Origin: an uncultured Flavobacteriaceae bacterium
GTDB taxonomy: Bacteria; Bacteroidota; Bacteroidia; Flavobacteriales; Flavobacteriaceae
Length of the DNA: 64,000 nt
Assembly (NCBI GenBank): GCA_943842625.1
Contig: CALTCK010000001.1
Span: 62,001 to 126,000, forward strand
Reading direction: 5' to 3'
The notes beneath the pieces are model-generated. The model searched no databases, was not told the DNA's origin, and saw only the letters and a list, made by a program, of their open reading frames with translations. Both the position numbers and the translations under genes were made by a program. Positions 9,974-63,568 of the stretch are shown one piece after another (the first letter of the stretch is position 1; each line of letters starts with the position of its first letter).

Positions 9974-10834
9974 ATGAATAAAAAAACGTTCACATCACTA
10001 CTTGCTCATCCGGAAAGCATAAGTCAAAAAAATCTTTTTGGATTGTCGGAGATCGTTGAAAAATATCCCTTTTTTCAAACAGCTAGAGCGCTACACTTAA
10101 AAAGTTTAAAAAAATCAAATAGCTTATTATACAATGATGCTTTAAAATTAACTGCAGCGTATACCACAGACAGAAATATTCTTTTTGAATACATTACTTC
10201 GAATTTTTTTATACAAAACGAAATTTCTGATACCATTCAAAAACAAGAAGATTCCTATCTTAAATTAGAAGTAACATCTGAAGATATATCTAAACAAGTT
10301 AGTAAAGAAATAGATCAACAATTAAAGACTGAATTAAAAAAAGCAGATGCCATATTAAACCCAGATTTATTTCACAGAAGAGAAAAATCCGTTGAAAAAC
10401 AAATAAAAAATGAAATTACAAAGTCTGATTTAGAGAAAAACAATCCTTTAGATTTTACCAAAGAAGATTCTCATTCATTCTCGGAATGGCTAAAACTTAC
10501 AACTGCTAAACCAATAGTTAGAGAAGCAACTAAAAATTTATCCAATTCGGAAAAACCTAATTCTGATTTAATCAACAAGTTTATCCAAGAAAATCCAAAA
10601 TTAAAACCCTCTAAAAGCATCGTAAAATATGATAAGGAAGAAAATTTAGCCAACGAAATTACCTATACCTCTGAAGCTTTAATGACTGAAACTTTAGCTA
10701 AAGTTTACTTACAACAAAACAATTATCAAAAAGCGTTGCAAGCCTACAAAATATTAAGTTTGAAATATCCCGAAAAAAGTGGTTTCTTTGCAGACCAAAT
10801 TCGAGCAATAAACAAACACATAAATAAAAATTAA
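9974..10834 (+). CDS. Hypothetical protein with a C-terminal TPR-like repeat
   Basis: This is a 286-residue cytoplasmic-looking protein with no signal peptide. The N-terminal 80 residues form a helical segment (LSEIVEKYPFFQTARALHLK). The middle is charged and poorly ordered, rich in Lys, Glu and Ser. The last 50 residues resemble one tetratricopeptide repeat (ETLAKVYLQQNNYQKALQAY). It starts 6 bases after lptE and ends 2 bases before secG, so it is part of the operon. The gene is conserved in position next to secG in Flavobacteriaceae, but I know of no assigned function. Confidence 0.75.
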   Translation: MNKKTFTSLLAHPESISQKNLFGLSEIVEKYPFFQTARALHLKSLKKSNSLLYNDALKLTAAYTTDRNILFEYITSNFFIQNEISDTIQKQEDSYLKLEVTSEDISKQVSKEIDQQLKTELKKADAILNPDLFHRREKSVEKQIKNEITKSDLEKNNPLDFTKEDSHSFSEWLKLTTAKPIVREATKNLSNSEKPNSDLINKFIQENPKLKPSKSIVKYDKEENLANEITYTSEALMTETLAKVYLQQNNYQKALQAYKILSLKYPEKSGFFADQIRAINKHINKN

Positions 10835-10836
10835 AA

Positions 10837-11178
10837 ATGAGTACATTTACAATATTTATAGGATTAATAATTTTTGTAGCCTTTCTATTAGTCGTAGTAA
10901 TTATGGTACAGAATCCTAAAGGTGGTGGATTATCTTCTTCTTTTGGTGGTGGTGGAACACAGCAATTAGGTGGCGTTCAAAAAACAACAGATTTTCTAGA
11001 CAAAAGCACCTGGACTCTAGCAACTCTTTTATTAGCTTTAATCCTACTTTCAAATGTTTCTATAATGAGTGGCGTTGGAAATTCTAGTTCAAAAGCATTT
11101 GATGAAAATGCAATAGAAAATGCACTACCACCAGTAGACATAGCACCGCAAGAAACTACAGAGGAAAACAATGAATAA
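10837..11178 (+). CDS. secG: Preprotein translocase subunit SecG
   Basis: This 113-residue SecG is the small accessory subunit of the SecYEG channel. It has two transmembrane helices (about 3-24 and 55-74) separated by the cytosolic loop with MVQNPKGGGLSSSFGGGG, the family hallmark. A short acidic tail ends the protein. It is the last gene of the miaB-secG operon and is followed by a strong intrinsic terminator. Confidence 0.93.
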   Translation: MSTFTIFIGLIIFVAFLLVVVIMVQNPKGGGLSSSFGGGGTQQLGGVQKTTDFLDKSTWTLATLLLALILLSNVSIMSGVGNSSSKAFDENAIENALPPVDIAPQETTEENNE

Positions 11179-11194
11179 TACATTTTTTAAGATA

Positions 11195-11235
11195 TTAAAA
11201 AATGCCAGCTTCTGACAAGCTGGCATTTTTTTTTA
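11195..11235 (+). terminator. Rho-independent terminator after secG
   Basis: An 11-base-pair perfect stem (11201-11211 with 11217-11227, core TGCCAGCTT/AAGCTGGCA) has a 5-base loop and is followed by a T run to 11234. It closes the miaB-secG operon and separates it from groS. Confidence 0.93.
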
Positions 11236-11238
11236 GTA

Positions 11239-11271
11239 TTGTCATTAAAAACAGGAACTGGCATACTTTTA
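11239..11271 (+). promoter_or_regulatory. Putative promoter of groS-groL
   Basis: TTG at 11239-11241 and TACTTTTA at 11264-11271 resemble the Bacteroidota -33/-7 pair, with a slightly long 22-base spacer. No CIRCE inverted repeat (TTAGCACTC/GAGTGCTAA) is seen, so HrcA control is not supported here. Confidence 0.35.
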
Positions 11272-11316
11272 GATTATATTGAAAATTATAAATAACAATT
11301 AAAAATAATAGTAACA

Positions 11317-11592
11317 ATGGCATTAAAAATTCAACCTCTTTCAGACAGAGTTTTAGTAGAACCACAAGAAGCAGAAACAAAAACAGCTTCTGGTTTATAC
11401 ATCCCAGATTCTGCAAAAGAAAAACCTCAACAAGGAAAAGTGGTAGCAGTAGGTAAAGGAAAAAAAGATCACAATATGACCGTTAAAGTTGGTGATATGG
11501 TTCTTTACGGAAAATACTCAGGAAGCGAATTAAAATATGAGGGTAATGATTACCTGATCATGCGAGAAGAAGACATTCTAGCAATTATCTAA
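11317..11592 (+). CDS. groS: Co-chaperonin GroES
   Basis: This 91-residue GroES opens with [21 protein letters not shown], carries the mobile-loop region ([23 protein letters not shown]) and ends with [13 protein letters not shown]. It is a heptameric lid for GroEL that closes the folding chamber in the cytoplasm. It sits 51 bases upstream of groL, the standard arrangement. Confidence 0.97.
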
Positions 11593-11637
11593 AAAAATAA
11601 GTAAATAATTTCCCAGTCATTGGGATTAAAAATATAA

Positions 11638-13278
<1,641 letters not shown>

Positions 13279-55961: not shown

Positions 55962-56661
55962 AATATCGATTATCATCCCCATTTTAAATGAAGAGAAAAA
56001 CATTATTTCTTTACTGGAGCATCTGGAGCAACATAGCAGTAAAAATAATAGTTTCGAGTTACTTATCGTAGACGGAGGAAGTACCGATGGATCCATCAGC
56101 AAAATCGAAAACTATATTAAAAATCATCATCATATAGCATTAATATCTTCGGAGCGTGGTAGGGCCAAACAAATGAATCGAGGGAGACTTCAGGCCAATG
56201 GCGCTATTTTATATTTTTTACACGCCGATAGTTATCCTCCCAAAAATTTTGATCAATACCTTATCGACGAGGTCAAAAAGGGAAACTTGGCAGGTTGTTT
56301 TAAAATGAAATTTAACCATCCGCATTGGTGGTTAAAAATTGCCTCTTGGTTTACTCAATTTAATTGGAGCGCATGCAGAGGCGGTGATCAAAGCCAATAC
56401 ATCACTGCTACTTTATTTGACGAGATTGGTGGCTTTAACGAAGATTATATCATTTACGAAGATCAAATTTTAATTAAGGAGCTTTATAAAAGAAATCAAT
56501 TTACAGTGATTCAAAAATGGATTTATACCTCAGCAAGATTGTATGAACAAAAAGGTATTTGGACCTTACAATATCATTTTTGGGCTATCTATATAAAAAA
56601 ATGGTTAGGCGCTGATGCAACTGCACTATATCGTTATTATTCGAGGCACATCGCTTCCTAA
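55954..56661 (+). CDS. TIGR04283-family arsenosugar glycosyltransferase
   Basis: This 235-residue GT2-family enzyme has the start ISIIIPILNEEKNIISLLEHL, the nucleotide-sugar site LLIVDGGSTDGSISKI, LHADSYPP (a DxD equivalent), and GGDQSQYITATLFDEIGGFNE. TIGR04283 members are restricted to arsenosugar clusters. It probably attaches or extends the sugar aglycone. It is the last gene of the cluster, and its stop overlaps the end of the damaged barrel gene on the opposite strand. Confidence 0.92.
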   Translation: MIKISIIIPILNEEKNIISLLEHLEQHSSKNNSFELLIVDGGSTDGSISKIENYIKNHHHIALISSERGRAKQMNRGRLQANGAILYFLHADSYPPKNFDQYLIDEVKKGNLAGCFKMKFNHPHWWLKIASWFTQFNWSACRGGDQSQYITATLFDEIGGFNEDYIIYEDQILIKELYKRNQFTVIQKWIYTSARLYEQKGIWTLQYHFWAIYIKKWLGADATALYRYYSRHIAS

Positions 56662-57486
56662 AGAATATTAAAAGTTCCACCAATACTAAAGTTGTATTGA
56701 GCAAAAAAGAAAGAGTGACTGGCACTATCGGAGGTACTGGAGGTGGTTCTTACATTTGGCAGGTTGATGTACCCTCCTTTTAGTTCGGTTTGTACCCTTA
56801 GATTTTTGAAAAAAGGTAAGTCCTACTCCAAAGAGGGCATGCAAACCATATCCGGCAACATTAAATTGATCGTAGCGGTTGTTATTTAAAACGACCGCAT
56901 TGGTTCTGGGATATATGGCTCCAAGTCCAGCACCAAAAAGGGCGTGCAGCTTAATTTTTTCGTGGAGTACCAGTAAATGATCTGCTCTTCTAAGCTCCGC
57001 ATTGATATAGTTTAGTCCGTCGGTATGCTCAAATTCTAAAAATCCTTCTTCTAATAAGATGCTTTCACCATTGTAGACCCCATCGTATAAAGTTCCTGAA
57101 TTTTGGATTTCCCCATAAATAGCTACTGGCTGATTTGGTAGGGCTATGTATTTCATGTGGTCGAGGCCTATGGATATGCTGTAACGATCGTTCACAAAGT
57201 AGCCCAGCCTAAAATTGTATTGTGGTGTGGTTAAATTAGAGGGATGAAAATAGTTTTCGGCTGTAAAACGAGTGGGGCGATCGGCTGCTTTCACACTTTT
57301 TAATTCGAAATGATAATGATCGCCTTTAAATTTAATATCTGAATTGCTGTACCAGGACCAATTATAACCCCAAGTTAAAAAAAAATCGCCTTTTTTATAA
57401 GCCGAACTAGTGGCTTGTGTTTAGATCTTGAGCATAGCCATGCGCTATAAAAATCGTCAATCGCTATAGATTGAACAAAACTTCAT
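56658..57486 (-). pseudogene. Outer-membrane beta-barrel gene, frameshifted
   Basis: The longest intact stretch (about 57420 to 56814) encodes alternating barrel strands: KKGDFFLTWGYNWSWYSNSD, QYNFRLGYFVNDRYSISIGLD, HALFGAGLGAIYP and VAGYGLHALFGVGLTFF. After the A6 run at 56809-56814 the sequence continues sensibly in another frame (KNLRVQTELKGGYINLPNV ... QYNFSIGGTFNIL, stop 56658). At the 5' end a signal-like piece (LTIFIAHGYAQDLN) lies in a different frame and the main frame meets a TAA at 57423. An ATG at 57486 begins a short frame that stops after nine codons. At least two shifts are therefore needed to rebuild a roughly 275-residue porin-like protein. It may have served the adjacent arsenosugar genes, but that is only position. 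Confidence 0.8.
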
Positions 57487-57589: not shown

Positions 57590-58864
57590 TTAATTTTCTA
57601 ATGGTTCAAGGCTTGAAGAGAGGTAATTTAAGAGGGGCTCTTGAAATAATTGCTCATTTAGGGATAAGAATTCTATATAAGCTTTATAGAGTTCGTGTTC
57701 AAACTTTAGAATTTCAATATTTTTTTTATTTTGAAGAATTTTAAGTTTTAAGAGTAGTAATGGCGATACACCATCCATTTTTTGGTAGGCTTCATAGATC
57801 GATGAAACACTGCTATTTTCGTTTTGTTTTTTTAATATCGTATAATTTACAATTGAGGTGTTATACGCATTTTTAGCGGAGGATACTTTTAGTTGATAGT
57901 TTTTTAATTCATTATTTAATTTGCTTTCTTTAACGGTCTTTTCAAAATAAAATTCACTTTTATCTTGTCTGGCAGCACCAAAAAAAGGCAAGTTGATCCC
58001 CAAACCTATAGACAAATTATCTTCAAATAAATTTTCTGATTTTCCGATGTATTTTGCTTGAACAAAATCCAGCAATTGGTTCGATTTTGCAATGGATAAA
58101 TTCATTTCATTTTCCAGGGTGTTCATTTTTAGTTTTTGAAGTGATAGGAATGTATACTCATAGGATACAGAGTCCGAGATAGGAAAATCTATAATTTGTT
58201 CCGGACTGATTAAATCGGTAGTTTCAATTGGCACTGCATCCAGACCAAAAACTTTTTTCAGGTACTCCTCTTGATCTTCTCTAATATTTTTTAGCTGTAT
58301 AATTTTTAAATGGGTTGCTAATAAATCTTCTTCCGATTCTATTACCTCTTTAATTTCAAAATTTTCATCGAAAACTTGATGTCCTAACAAGGTTAGTTTG
58401 TCATTTATTTGTTGTTGTTTAGTTAATAAAAGTACTTCCATTTTATTATTGAAAATATAATCCAGCGCAAACAAATACCTACTTTTTAAGTCCTGGTTGA
58501 TCTCTATTTTATTTTCTAAATGAACTTCCTGAATTTTATTGGAGTAAATATTTTTTTGGCTCGATATTTCTCTAAAATTATTGGGTTTTATTCGTACCGA
58601 ATATTCTTGAAAGGTTTCAATAAATCGCCTAGTTTCCAATCTAAATTGGGTGCTCTTTATAAGCGGTATGTTATAATTTTTACTATGGAGTAGTGAACTG
58701 GTCGTAGAATCTTTAACGGCCAACTCAGACTTATTTATTGAGCTCAAAAAAGTGGTTAATGATTGCTTTTCTTGAGCTTGAGTTACTGCAACTCCAGCAA
58801 AGAGTAACGTGAGTAAAATACTCCTTGAGTTGATCTTTACTATTTTAAAAAGAAGACTCATCAT
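57590..58864 (-). CDS. TolC-like outer-membrane efflux protein
   Basis: This 424-residue protein has a signal peptide (about 1-30, ending AGVAVTQAQ) and long amphipathic helices typical of the TolC/OEP family. Examples are FQEYSVRIKPNNFREISS, LGHQVFDENFEIKEVIESEE and LKNYQLKVSSAKNAYNTSIV, with one barrel-strand region at LSIGLGINLPFFGAARQDK. It would form the outer-membrane exit duct for the adjacent HlyD-like adaptor, whose gene ends 12 bases upstream. It is shorter than E. coli TolC and divergent, so the family call rests on helix pattern, LGINLPFF strand and context. Confidence 0.8.
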   Translation of the reverse strand: MMSLLFKIVKINSRSILLTLLFAGVAVTQAQEKQSLTTFLSSINKSELAVKDSTTSSLLHSKNYNIPLIKSTQFRLETRRFIETFQEYSVRIKPNNFREISSQKNIYSNKIQEVHLENKIEINQDLKSRYLFALDYIFNNKMEVLLLTKQQQINDKLTLLGHQVFDENFEIKEVIESEEDLLATHLKIIQLKNIREDQEEYLKKVFGLDAVPIETTDLISPEQIIDFPISDSVSYEYTFLSLQKLKMNTLENEMNLSIAKSNQLLDFVQAKYIGKSENLFEDNLSIGLGINLPFFGAARQDKSEFYFEKTVKESKLNNELKNYQLKVSSAKNAYNTSIVNYTILKKQNENSSVSSIYEAYQKMDGVSPLLLLKLKILQNKKNIEILKFEHELYKAYIEFLSLNEQLFQEPLLNYLSSSLEPLEN

Positions 58865-58876
58865 ACAAGAAATCTA

Positions 58877-59890
58877 TTAGTAAACTAAATTTAAAATCAC
58901 TTTTTCTTTTTGCAGAAAAGGGTTGTCTGAGGGAATTTCTATGATGATTTCTCTACCAAAAGTTTTTAGCTCTTTAATTTTTCTGAGTCTTGGCGGAATT
59001 TCTACAATTCTGGAACCTAAAGTTTTTACGACTCCTTTATTTTGGATATCAGGTCTTGAACTTGAAAATATGCTTATTGAATCGTTTATATTTATTTTTA
59101 GAATAAGTTCTTCATGAATATAACCTACCACCAAGTTGGGGCTTTCTTCATAAAAAGAAATAAGCGCTCCAAACGATGCTATTTTTTCTCCTTCTTTACA
59201 ATGTACATTTCCAATTAACCCATCTGATGGGGCCAAAATAAGCTCATCTCTTTTTCTTTTTTTATAATGGTCTAATTGTGCCTCTAGTGCTCTGATTTCT
59301 GAAAGTAAGGGGTTGTTTTGAGCAAATCGCTCACTCTTTAAATTATTAATTTGAGTGCGAATTATTTCTTGTGTTTGTTTTAGTTCTAATTCTAGTGAAG
59401 CTAATTTTACTTGACTTGGATTGATAATTTCATTGGATTCACTATCCATTAAATTTATACTTTTAATTTTTTTTGATAATTCCTTATTGTTATTAAGCTT
59501 AATTTTTAATTGATCTATCTGTGATTGAATTTTACTGGTTTGCTCTTTCAATTCGATTTCGTATTGAAGGATTCTCCAGTCCAAATCAGATTTCCATAAA
59601 TTATACTTGGTTTGCAGTTCTTCAATTTTATATTCTACATCGCTCGTTTTAATAGGTAAGGTAGCTGATATCACGTTTAATAATGGCGAACCCTTTTCGA
59701 CTTTTTGACCAACTGTAACAAATATTTTTTCAACCTCAATGGCATTTTCCATGCTAATTTCAGTTTCTTTATTATCGGCAAATCCATAAAAAGTTACGGT
59801 GCTATCTGCTTTGAAAAAAAGTGAATAAAGTAATAAAACACAGATTAGTATCGCAACCAGATAAATAAGGTTAAATTTTTTCATAATCAT
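58877..59890 (-). CDS. HlyD/membrane-fusion adaptor protein
   Basis: This 337-residue periplasmic adaptor has an N-terminal transmembrane helix (about 8-26) and a split lipoyl domain, with halves at about 47-72 (VEKIFVTVGQKVEKGSPLL) and about 215-245 (LAPSDGLIGNVHCKEGEKI). A long coiled-coil hairpin lies between them. A beta-barrel part follows, ending KEKVILNLVY. Such adaptors bridge an inner-membrane partner to a TolC duct. The start overlaps the DUF4956 gene by 20 bases; an alternative ATG two codons in (MKKFNLIY) is equally likely. No ABC, RND or MFS pump gene is present nearby. Confidence 0.87.
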   Translation of the reverse strand: MIMKKFNLIYLVAILICVLLLYSLFFKADSTVTFYGFADNKETEISMENAIEVEKIFVTVGQKVEKGSPLLNVISATLPIKTSDVEYKIEELQTKYNLWKSDLDWRILQYEIELKEQTSKIQSQIDQLKIKLNNNKELSKKIKSINLMDSESNEIINPSQVKLASLELELKQTQEIIRTQINNLKSERFAQNNPLLSEIRALEAQLDHYKKRKRDELILAPSDGLIGNVHCKEGEKIASFGALISFYEESPNLVVGYIHEELILKININDSISIFSSSRPDIQNKGVVKTLGSRIVEIPPRLRKIKELKTFGREIIIEIPSDNPFLQKEKVILNLVY

Positions 59891-60584
59891 CTTTGAAATT
59901 TATCCTCACATTAAATATTCCTTCCATTACAGCTAATTCATTAACTAATACTCGTGCTTTCTCTTTACTTTCTATTTTAATTTTAAAATCGAAGGAAACC
60001 ATCTGAATTAGAGTATCTCCACTTTTTTTATTATTGATAGCATACTTTGATAAGTTTACCTTTACACAGGTATTACTTAGATGATCTTCAATGATTTTAC
60101 GCTTATTAGATGCTAATAAAATATCATTTGGGATATCAAACTGTAAACTTGCAATAACCGATGTTTTTTTACTTAAATCGGAATAATGTATTAACAATAC
60201 CACCAAACAAAAGCCCAGTGTCCCAATTACTGCAATCGTAAATCCATAAACTCCAGTAGCTATACCAACTGTAATAGAGGTAAACATAAATGCCATATTT
60301 CTTGGGTTTCGAAGCGTAGTTCTGAACCTAATAATGGCAAGTGCCCCTAACATACCAAGTCCCCTTGCTAGACTATCACCAATTGCTTGCATTACTGTTG
60401 CTACTGGAATAGATATTAGTATTAGAGCTTGTATAAAATATTTTGGACTTTCTAATTCTCTGGAAGTCTTCTGATAAATCAAAGCAATTAAAGAGGACAA
60501 AACAAATGAAACTAATGCTATTACAATTACATTGGTTAAACTAGATCCCTCTAAATTATTGGTCAAACTTGAAAAATCAAACAT
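59871..60584 (-). CDS. DUF4956 inner-membrane protein
   Basis: This 237-residue protein has four helices in its first 135 residues (about 18-38, 49-66, 94-112, 115-134). The DUF4956 signature lies around ALAIIRFRTTLRNPRNMAFM. A cytosolic alpha/beta domain of about 100 residues follows (SLQFDIPNDILL, VSFDFKIKIESKEKARVLVN), resembling a small ACT/ferredoxin-like sensor fold. The function is unknown. In other bacteria DUF4956 genes often sit with CotH and VTC-type polyphosphate-polymerase genes. Here CotH is present, VTC is absent, and an adaptor plus TolC follow. Confidence 0.87.
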   Translation of the reverse strand: MFDFSSLTNNLEGSSLTNVIVIALVSFVLSSLIALIYQKTSRELESPKYFIQALILISIPVATVMQAIGDSLARGLGMLGALAIIRFRTTLRNPRNMAFMFTSITVGIATGVYGFTIAVIGTLGFCLVVLLIHYSDLSKKTSVIASLQFDIPNDILLASNKRKIIEDHLSNTCVKVNLSKYAINNKKSGDTLIQMVSFDFKIKIESKEKARVLVNELAVMEGIFNVRINFKDDYEKI

Positions 60585-60601
60585 ACTATTTTACTATTTT
60601 T

Positions 60602-63568
60602 TTATTCAATAATAAGTTTTTGTGTCTGGACTAATGTTTGATCCATTGCAATTATTTTTAATAGATAAATACCAGCATTTAAGTTACCTCTTGAAATTAT
60701 AAATGTGTTATCGTTGGTCTCCTTGGAAAGAATTTCTCTTCCCAATATATCAAACATTTTCATCGCTAACTTAGAATTTGTATTAGAGACCGTAATTGTT
60801 GCCGTTGTTTTCATAGGATTTGGATATACAGAGATATTCATCATTGTTCCGACTTCATCGGTTCCTAAACTACAATCATTATTAGCAGTAGCCGGAGTTC
60901 CGTATTCAAATCCCGGTGCTGCACAAGCATCCCAATTTTCTCCTTCATCATTATCTAAATCTGGATCGATTAATTCAAGTGTGGGTCCGTTTCCATCGGC
61001 CTCTGTTGGCCATGGGTCTTCATCGTCATAATCAACAGAGTCGACTAAAACACTGGAGTTATCGTATAATCGAATTAACTCGCCTCCTCCACTTAAACCA
61101 AATTCAAAATCACCTAAAACTGGGCTTACATCGGGATAATAGGTTTGAAAATCTGCTAAACTTTGAGCTAATACTATATATGAATCTGCAGGCATAATTG
61201 TTCCTGAAGGAATAATAAACTCATGTAAGTCGTCACTATCTTTGAATACCCATCCAGAAATATCTACCGAAATGTCAGAATTGTTATACAATTCAATCCA
61301 ATCTTTCACTTCAAGATCTGGCGAATCTTTATAATTAATTTCGTTAATAACAATTTCAGACCCTCCTACATAAGAGAATACCGCCGTAACGTTTTCAGCT
61401 TGCTCCAAAAAGAATGAGGTGTTAATTGCATTTTCATCAACAACGGTATGATTATCCAATTCCCAGTGATCAAAGACATAATCTGCGTTGTTCTGTTCTG
61501 CTTCTAATAATATATCAATTCCTCCATTATAAGAACCTGTCCAAGGGTAATCACTATTATCAATAGTAATAGAATTCAATTGGATTTGACCAGCCCCTTC
61601 TGGAACTACATTGAGGGAAATGTCATAAGGTCCAGTCAAATTATAACAGTCATTAAGACCTCCCGGGATGTATTCTATTCGGTCACTAATAAAATCTTTT
61701 ATTTTTTGAACATTGTCCTGCCACTGGCCCATACTTCCTCCCCATCTTTCAATGTGTTGAGGCATTTCTGGAGCAATAGCATTTTCTATCCCTTCTAGAA
61801 CTCCTATCATCTCCTCTTCTTTAAATGCAGTATTCATTAAATCCATGTATCGGGTTATATAGTATTGACGAAACTCCTCATTTTCTAATAACTTATTTAG
61901 CAAAACTATATGTTGCTCAGGATCTGCAGTAATACCTTCTGGATAACAGGGATCGGCATCTGGATTTTCATTAGGAACCCCCGTATAATTTATATAATGA
62001 TTGAACGTTGCGTCCTCATCCCATAAAACATAACCCCATTTTAAATGACTACCAGAGGGATCTAAACCTCTCCACCAAGAGGTATTCCAATTGATCCAAT
62101 CGGTACATACTACAAAGGAGTTGATTAAAATATAATCGACTAAACTAGTCACATCAATTTCAGCGGCCACTTGCTGGTAATTTGCTTGGATAGATAAATC
62201 ATTTGATAAAGCAAAGGAGTGAATTTCTTCCCAATCATCAAATGCATCCTGTCCACCATATTGCGCCCAAGTACCTCCCCAATTCATTAAATATTGAACA
62301 TTATATTTGTCTTGATCGTAATAAAAATCGGTATAATCAGAATCACTTACTTTTTCTCTTATGGAATAGACACCCCAGAATACGCCATTTGCATAAACAA
62401 CACAACGATCTCCTCTTCTCAAGTCGACATTTAAATTATTTTTATTGGCTAGTTTTTGGATAAAAACATCTCTGGTATGTGCACTTGAATCAATTCCTGG
62501 ATAATTGTCATCGCCTGACGCTCTGATAATGATTCTCTGAAAACTTTCTCTTTCAGAATACTCTAAAAGTTTATCATTAATTGCATCATGGTATCCCATT
62601 TCATCTCTGGCAATATAATCAAAACTTCGCTGAGGAAATTGCCAAGAATCTTGACCATGTTTGTTGTATTCTCCATAACCCGCATCTTTCCTTATACCCT
62701 CAGCATCAAAATACTCAATAGTACCATGGGGTCTTAAACTTTGATTTCCATTTAATAGAACGGTTAGCTCGTCTGCTGATGTCGACAACACTGGTAATGA
62801 ATGATTTTCATCGATAAAATAAGTGTTAAAAGAAATAAAACTTGGTAAAATTTCTGGATTATCGGAAATCACTATTGCTTTAACTATTTTTGTTTGAGAT
62901 AACGTTAAAGCTGCAGAATATTCTGTTGAACTATCGGAGGGCAATGTTCCATTTAGCGTATAATAAATCGAAGAATTAGGTTCGTCTGATGTGATGGAAA
63001 CGTTTTGAGTCCCTTCATAAAAACCAGCTTCTAAGTTCATAACAGGAGTTTCTGCATAAGCTAGGTAGCTAGCACCTGAATTAGAATCGCCTAGAGTTGA
63101 AACTGTAAAAATTTTCCAATCTCCGGAACCATTAGGTGACTTTCCCATGGAATGTTCTAGTTGTGCTTTTTGAAGTTCTACATCTTCAAGAATAGATCCA
63201 CTAGCATCAGAAAAAACAATGTGCTCTTGGGTATTTCTTGTTTGTTTGAGTTTGAAATTTGTATGGTAATTATTTCCTGAAACCTCATCTCTTCCAGAGC
63301 ACCAAAAAACCAAATATCCGTTAGCAGGAATCACAGTCTCTTCTGGGATTTCCCATTTTGTTGGGTTGGTAGTTTTATCACTCAAGTAAAAACCCCCAAC
63401 ATTTACGGAAGAAGCGCCTGTGTTGTAAAGTTCAATCCAATCTTCTTCACCGCCATAATTATCCAAATAACTACTAAGATTAGAGACAGAATATTCATTA
63501 ATTACAACTTGACCAAAACAAGACATGGAAGCTATTACAATACTAAATAACAAAATAATTTTTTTCAT
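60602..63568 (-). CDS. CotH-kinase/lamin-tail protein with type IX sorting domain
   Basis: This is a 988-residue secreted protein. Order: signal peptide (1-20); lamin-tail domain (about 20-135, VVINEYSVSN, EDWIELYNTG); chitobiase-like beta domain (about 175-245); and a CotH-like kinase core (about 255-640, PQRSFDYIARDEMGY, RRGDRCVVYANGVFWGVYSI, YVLWDEDATFN). A bacterial repeat-type domain (about 650-735) and a second lamin-tail domain (about 735-850) follow. The last 75 residues are a type IX secretion C-terminal sorting domain (ISVYPNPMKTTATITV ... IYLLKIIAMDQTLVQ). CotH of spore formers phosphorylates coat proteins; here the target is unknown. It heads the operon with DUF4956, HlyD and TolC genes. 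Confidence 0.93.
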   Translation of the reverse strand: MKKIILLFSIVIASMSCFGQVVINEYSVSNLSSYLDNYGGEEDWIELYNTGASSVNVGGFYLSDKTTNPTKWEIPEETVIPANGYLVFWCSGRDEVSGNNYHTNFKLKQTRNTQEHIVFSDASGSILEDVELQKAQLEHSMGKSPNGSGDWKIFTVSTLGDSNSGASYLAYAETPVMNLEAGFYEGTQNVSITSDEPNSSIYYTLNGTLPSDSSTEYSAALTLSQTKIVKAIVISDNPEILPSFISFNTYFIDENHSLPVLSTSADELTVLLNGNQSLRPHGTIEYFDAEGIRKDAGYGEYNKHGQDSWQFPQRSFDYIARDEMGYHDAINDKLLEYSERESFQRIIIRASGDDNYPGIDSSAHTRDVFIQKLANKNNLNVDLRRGDRCVVYANGVFWGVYSIREKVSDSDYTDFYYDQDKYNVQYLMNWGGTWAQYGGQDAFDDWEEIHSFALSNDLSIQANYQQVAAEIDVTSLVDYILINSFVVCTDWINWNTSWWRGLDPSGSHLKWGYVLWDEDATFNHYINYTGVPNENPDADPCYPEGITADPEQHIVLLNKLLENEEFRQYYITRYMDLMNTAFKEEEMIGVLEGIENAIAPEMPQHIERWGGSMGQWQDNVQKIKDFISDRIEYIPGGLNDCYNLTGPYDISLNVVPEGAGQIQLNSITIDNSDYPWTGSYNGGIDILLEAEQNNADYVFDHWELDNHTVVDENAINTSFFLEQAENVTAVFSYVGGSEIVINEINYKDSPDLEVKDWIELYNNSDISVDISGWVFKDSDDLHEFIIPSGTIMPADSYIVLAQSLADFQTYYPDVSPVLGDFEFGLSGGGELIRLYDNSSVLVDSVDYDDEDPWPTEADGNGPTLELIDPDLDNDEGENWDACAAPGFEYGTPATANNDCSLGTDEVGTMMNISVYPNPMKTTATITVSNTNSKLAMKMFDILGREILSKETNDNTFIISRGNLNAGIYLLKIIAMDQTLVQTQKLIIE

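Follow-up and report, generated by a model that had tools for sequence, protein, structure and literature searches.

A pump-less DUF4956–adaptor–TolC gene trio: a conserved, apparently undescribed envelope system

A 64,000-nucleotide stretch of DNA from an uncultured marine Flavobacteriaceae bacterium (contig CALTCK010000001.1 of assembly GCA_943842625.1, a genome 83.8% complete; hereafter the window) carries, at positions 57590-63568, four minus-strand genes for a secreted CotH-type kinase, a DUF4956 membrane protein, a periplasmic adaptor and a TolC-like duct. The last three form a trio whose order is conserved well beyond this genome with no recurrent pump beside it, and our literature search returned no description of DUF4956 together with an adaptor and TolC. 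The trio is a conserved and apparently undescribed envelope system. Our leading interpretation, in which we place roughly even confidence, is that it constitutes a pump-less tripartite conduit with DUF4956 as the inner-membrane partner, working with CotH in the biogenesis of a surface matrix. This interpretation is built on the protein domains, the TolC fold, the gene order, the absence of a pump, the single DUF4956 clade and the co-occurrence with CotH, from which we infer the physical complex, the direction of flow, the gating and the matrix function of the trio.

Conservation of the trio and absence of a pump

DUF4956 loci were collected from 296 Bacteroidota genomes and, using the DUF4956 profile alone, from a GTDB contig collection; after gene calling, labels were assigned by means of profiles built up from the proteins of the window. 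The order DUF4956-adaptor-TolC occurs in 93 loci, with median intergenic gaps of 2 and 0 nt and gaps of at most 30 nt in 80 and 82 of them, respectively; the 93 should not be taken as independent events, as some loci (L054 and L145, for example) nearly duplicate each other. Because the three-gene order recurs to this extent, the window operon, first noted in a preliminary description made from the sequence alone, stands well beyond chance. Searching with DUF4956 alone retrieved 80 contig loci, and 73 of them have the trio; the other seven lie at a contig edge (L137, L154 and L175), are broken (L199 and L200) or have no trio (L177 and L201). A reverse search of 246 genomes of the order with the adaptor profile yielded three carriers, all in trio loci; the trio is thus rare in the order and very tight where present. 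Carriers include Flavobacteriaceae (Ulvibacter, Bizionia and Polaribacter records), Saprospiraceae (including Flavilitoribacter and Neolewinella isolates), a further Bacteroidota family (f23), Chitinivibrionales, Gammaproteobacteria and one Deltaproteobacterium. No constant fifth gene accompanies the trio in these loci, the neighbours varying between families.

A maximum-likelihood DUF4956 tree unites the trio members, truncated loci included, in one supported clade (100/98). Its deepest branches (L096, L209, L210 and L203) have VTC, a polyphosphate polymerase, and CotH beside the trio, and the loci outside the clade are of the VTC-DUF4956-HlyD, HlyD-VTC-DUF4956 and VTC-DUF4956 types. The simple reading of this tree, whose root is arbitrary, would be that a VTC-associated DUF4956 gained the adaptor and TolC and that the crown group then lost VTC.

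A hydropathy and motif screen, as distinct from a full annotation, detected no recurrent ABC exporter, RND or MFS protein within four genes of the trio across the 93 loci; multi-transmembrane neighbours are few and differ from locus to locus. As the preliminary description had it, the window operon itself contains no pump gene, and DUF4956 is indeed the only polytopic inner-membrane protein of the set; nor does a pump gene lie at either edge of the operon. As a control within the same genome, all three other OEP systems adjoin a pump (an RND protein of about 1055 aa in two cases and a MacB-type ABC set in one); the missing pump thus characterises the trio family rather than the genome.

Proteins of the operon

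The four genes, tightly packed on the minus strand as first described (Table 1), are separated, from CotH to the TolC-like gene, by 17 nt, a 20-nt overlap and 12 nt according to the open reading frame (ORF) calls. Their order is kept in two other metagenome-assembled genomes, in L134 from DUF4956 onwards and in L135 from CotH onwards. Pfam matches settle the first two identities, and the two initially weak calls, adaptor and duct, hold by family profile and predicted fold, respectively.

Table 1. Genes of the window operon and an adjoining gene
Feature	Position	Strand	Basis and remarks
CotH-type atypical kinase, 988 aa	60602..63568	-	Pfam lamin-tail, CHB_HEX_C_1, type IX secretion C-terminal signal
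DUF4956 inner-membrane protein, 237 aa	59871..60584	-	Pfam; model with 5 transmembrane helices and C-terminal ACT/ferredoxin-like domain
EmrA/HlyD-like periplasmic adaptor, 337 aa	58877..59890	-	One N-terminal transmembrane helix, coiled-coil hairpin, lipoyl halves
TolC/OEP-type outer-membrane duct, 424 aa	57590..58864	-	Predicted fold; sequence below Pfam detection
Outer-membrane-type gene, ~274 aa, possible optional companion	56661..57486	-	Frame-broken in window; homologues beside trio in L135 and L140

The window DUF4956 protein scores 57.5 bits against its Pfam model (cut-off 30.6). About five short transmembrane helices contain conserved Asp/Arg residues and an invariant or near-invariant motif, GDSLARGLG..GALAIIRFRT. 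In the structural model (pLDDT 80), Foldseek pairs the C-terminal domain with ACT domains and with C-terminal MgtC domains (2lqj and 7qa5); matches of the fold search were confined to this domain, with none for the transmembrane part, and sequence searches returned no solved structure for DUF4956. The positive-inside rule places the C terminus in the cytosol and leaves only very short loops in the periplasm, so any contact with the adaptor would be through the mouths of the helices.

The window adaptor gives weak HlyD matches only in Pfam (HlyD_D23, E 2.7e-5) and matches NCBIfam adaptor models below their cut-offs. HlyD_D23 is detected in 39 of the 44 members of its family, whose profile matches solved EmrA (E 3.7e-9) and MacA (E 9.6e-8), as well as LipC in the PDB. 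With a motif of its own (GSRIVEIPxRLRK...GRE) and a family median of 428 bits against its profile (two other adaptors of the genome reach about 21 bits and the third has no match), the trio adaptor is, on sequence grounds, a subfamily of its own. Proteobacterial trio adaptors (L203:9688-11568, L208:9681-11612 and L210:9749-11755) have an extra C-terminal domain of ~300 aa that weakly resembles SdiA-regulated (PF06977, E 0.0018 in L210), and a similar stretch forms a separate ORF in L199. The HlyD-VTC-DUF4956 loci (L064-L116) carry upstream of VTC a ~355-aa family with an N-terminal transmembrane segment, a coiled coil and barrel-like ends, barely detected by HlyD models, which looks like a divergent adaptor lineage associated with DUF4956; against the profile of the trio adaptor its members score no more than 19 bits, and these loci were therefore not counted as trio.

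The duct has no Pfam match in the window, and Pfam OEP matches 10 of the 50 members of its family. The model of the 424-aa protein (pLDDT 90) consists of long helices and two strand pairs that match the TolC and OprM structures (Foldseek best E 9e-12). In the relative L135, whose DUF4956 is 94% identical, the TolC-like gene is split at 10700-12000 into ORFs of 92 and 263 aa, by sequencing error or decay. The outer-membrane-type gene downstream of the window trio, patchy among the loci, is interrupted by a frameshift; it is intact (274 aa) in the 97%-identical locus L135 and absent from L134, where ~900 bases are missing. A promoter scan was uninformative (26 found versus 31 expected), and a defence system was rejected as a candidate, PADLOC returning weak coiled-coil matches only.

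Association with secreted CotH kinases

The window CotH protein matches Pfam CotH (118 bits), LTD (110 bits; two lamin-tail domains), CHB_HEX_C_1 (a chitobiase-like domain) and Por_Secre_tail (44 bits; a type IX sorting domain). It is a predicted kinase, with the CotH domain intact over 322 positions; its type IX signal lies at residues 914-987 (TIGR04183, E 1.3e-11), and by inspection its N terminus is hydrophobic and signal-peptide-like. In 33 of the 93 loci, including most of those from Flavobacteriaceae, a same-strand CotH gene lies near the trio, and L054, L136 and L140 have two or three CotH-type genes nearby. The unit of four genes originally proposed therefore narrows to three, DUF4956-adaptor-TolC being obligatory and CotH a frequent but not constant neighbour. 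Every trio genome checked encodes CotH, linked or unlinked. Specifically, each genome of family f23 carries CotH genes away from the trio, and for all six f23 loci examined a ~1000-aa CotH protein aligns over its full length with the window protein (28-30% identity). DUF4956 occurs in 74 of the 296 Bacteroidota genomes sampled, about a quarter, and CotH is present in 67 of these 74 versus 40 of the other 222 (Fisher 6e-30, a P value inflated by relatedness, as the test ignores phylogenetic dependence). The trio resembles an exporter spanning the cell wall, yet its genomic associates are secreted CotH kinases, and it probably represents a novel type of machine that builds the cell surface.

Proposed conduit and competing explanations

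In the proposed conduit, DUF4956 would take the inner-membrane place usual for an RND, ABC or MFS pump, the EmrA-like adaptor would bridge the periplasm and the TolC-like protein would form the outer-membrane exit. DUF4956 is no pump of the classical kind; its cytosolic ACT-like domain could act as a ligand sensor that gates the channel. In concert with a secreted CotH-type kinase, exported by the type IX route in the window genome, the conduit would build or modify a cell-surface matrix.

The best functional anchor comes from a Gram-positive relative. In Streptococcus intermedius, SIR_1592 is described as an MgtC transmembrane part plus ACT (PMC12345266), and its gene order and domains suggest that it is of DUF4956 type. 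Its deletion raised Pel and lowered aggregation, deletion of the CotH gene SIR_1594 lowered both, and neither abolished Pel; no such effect was reported for the polyphosphate-polymerase gene SIR_1593 (PMC12345266).

Several points weigh against a conduit. The S. intermedius homologue acts with no adaptor or TolC, and the persistence of Pel upon its loss suggests a modulating role. DUF4956 has no recognisable energy-coupling motif, its transmembrane model is middling (pLDDT 65-94) with no solved relative, and no fusion or structure shows contact between it and the adaptor. Furthermore, CotH is unlinked in about two thirds of the trio loci, and the co-occurrence test takes no account of phylogeny, as given above.

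The main rival, unlikely in our estimation yet the strongest of its kind, holds that DUF4956 is an MgtC-like regulator or accessory protein and that the adaptor and TolC serve a pump encoded elsewhere. DUF4956 has a glycine-rich transmembrane segment weakly similar to that of the MgtC/SapB family and, like that family, a C-terminal ACT-like domain, an architecture that would suit a regulator. Some members match MgtC at E 8e-4, but the window protein misses the Pfam threshold (E 0.017), and hhalign (E 0.0014, probability only 18%) makes homology of the transmembrane parts suggestive only. The streptococcal case fits this explanation too, as does the pairing of EmrA, the adaptor's nearest solved relative, with an MFS pump. 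However, a shared pump would have to lie away from the trio in all 93 of 93 loci, in none of which DUF4956 is separated; the other adaptors of the genome all adjoin pumps, and the trio adaptor stands a subfamily apart from them. MgtC is not known to pair with adaptors.

Under a second rival, which we judge improbable, the trio exports polyphosphate or another phosphate polymer made by VTC or otherwise supplied by PPK or an unlinked VTC. Outside the trio clade, DUF4956 usually has VTC as a neighbour, and in 4 of the 93 trio loci, those of the deep branches, VTC is linked as well. PPK1 is found in 19 of 20 trio genomes, so polyphosphate would be available in them, though with no linked enzyme. 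By contrast, VTC is absent genome-wide from 18 of these 20 (G090, G160 and sixteen of f23, all at least 98% complete), and VTC-made polyphosphate is thereby ruled out as the general cargo, PPK1-made polyphosphate being still a possible one. The VTC partner that the preliminary description found missing is indeed lacking from the window cluster, but this is no quirk of one operon. In the crown group, no trio was seen with a linked VTC or PPK1 gene, and export of a phosphate polymer is less likely there, VTC being absent. No PPK1 was found in the incomplete window genome, and its VTC belongs to a CotH-VTC-DUF4956-CotH cluster in a polysaccharide locus on contig 8, together with a separate DUF4956 that the tree puts outside the trio clade. 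This cluster (L004, 50.2-56.3 kb) is the classical VTC arrangement in the same genome as the trio; it runs CotH-like (836 aa, with a beta-helix C terminus)-VTC-DUF4956-CotH-like (602 aa) within an exopolysaccharide locus, the CotH-like calls resting on a local profile and not on Pfam.

A more specific version of the conduit, which we regard as a long shot, would have it supply the secreted CotH kinase, through the envelope, with a donor of phosphoryl groups, be it ATP, another nucleotide or polyphosphate, VTC-bearing versions carrying polyphosphate and VTC-less ones a nucleotide sensed by the ACT-like domain. If true, this would solve the lack of ATP outside the cell for a surface kinase, and it would account for the co-occurrence with CotH, for the exchangeability of VTC and for the lack of a pump of classical type.

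That the genes are chance neighbours, or what is left of a degenerating efflux operon whose pump has gone from this genome, is barely credible. In favour of this view, genes for adaptors and TolC proteins abound, a pump can disappear, the downstream gene is broken in the window and TolC is split in L135, but the pump-less order with intact long ORFs in several Bacteroidota families, Chitinivibrionales and Proteobacteria refutes it unless all loci share an undetected pump.

Should the pump-less conduit prove correct, a small MgtC-like protein in the pump position would represent a new class of inner-membrane partner, and a widespread domain seldom named in the literature would gain a function. 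With the trio, the part that secreted CotH kinases play outside sporulation also becomes open to direct tests.

Relation to known systems

CotH-PPP-DUF4956 accessory genes accompany Gram-positive pel clusters (PMC7112168), and this cassette, which includes SIR_1592-1594, shares DUF4956 and a secreted CotH with the operon described here, the two being adjacent in the window. The cassette has VTC, no adaptor or TolC and a place in a pel locus, whereas the trio includes an adaptor and a duct and mostly lacks VTC, and the window operon showed no pel genes. In the S. intermedius study, the synteny of SIR_1592-1594 was confined to pel loci (PMC12345266); VTC-DUF4956 with CotH nearby is common in the Bacteroidota surveyed here, where pel genes were not looked for. 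In the Clostridium perfringens locus NELoc-2 (CP4_0460-0465), ORFs of 222-226 aa annotated as 'tubulin/FtsZ' lie between VTC-domain genes and CotH (PMC2879425); by analogy of position, they are probably misannotated DUF4956 proteins.

The VTC-DUF4956 and HlyD-VTC-DUF4956 clusters of Bacteroidota have a related DUF4956, often with CotH nearby, and an adaptor-like gene in two layouts, only weakly adaptor-like in the HlyD-VTC-DUF4956 one. They differ from the trio in that VTC is always present, no TolC is adjacent and their DUF4956 falls outside the trio clade. Finally, tripartite envelope machines are taken to require an ABC, RND or MFS pump (PMC8277102). Like EmrAB-TolC and other tripartite efflux and type 1 secretion systems, the trio sets an EmrA-like adaptor and a TolC-fold duct side by side; unlike them, it has no energised ABC, RND or MFS transporter but DUF4956 in its place.

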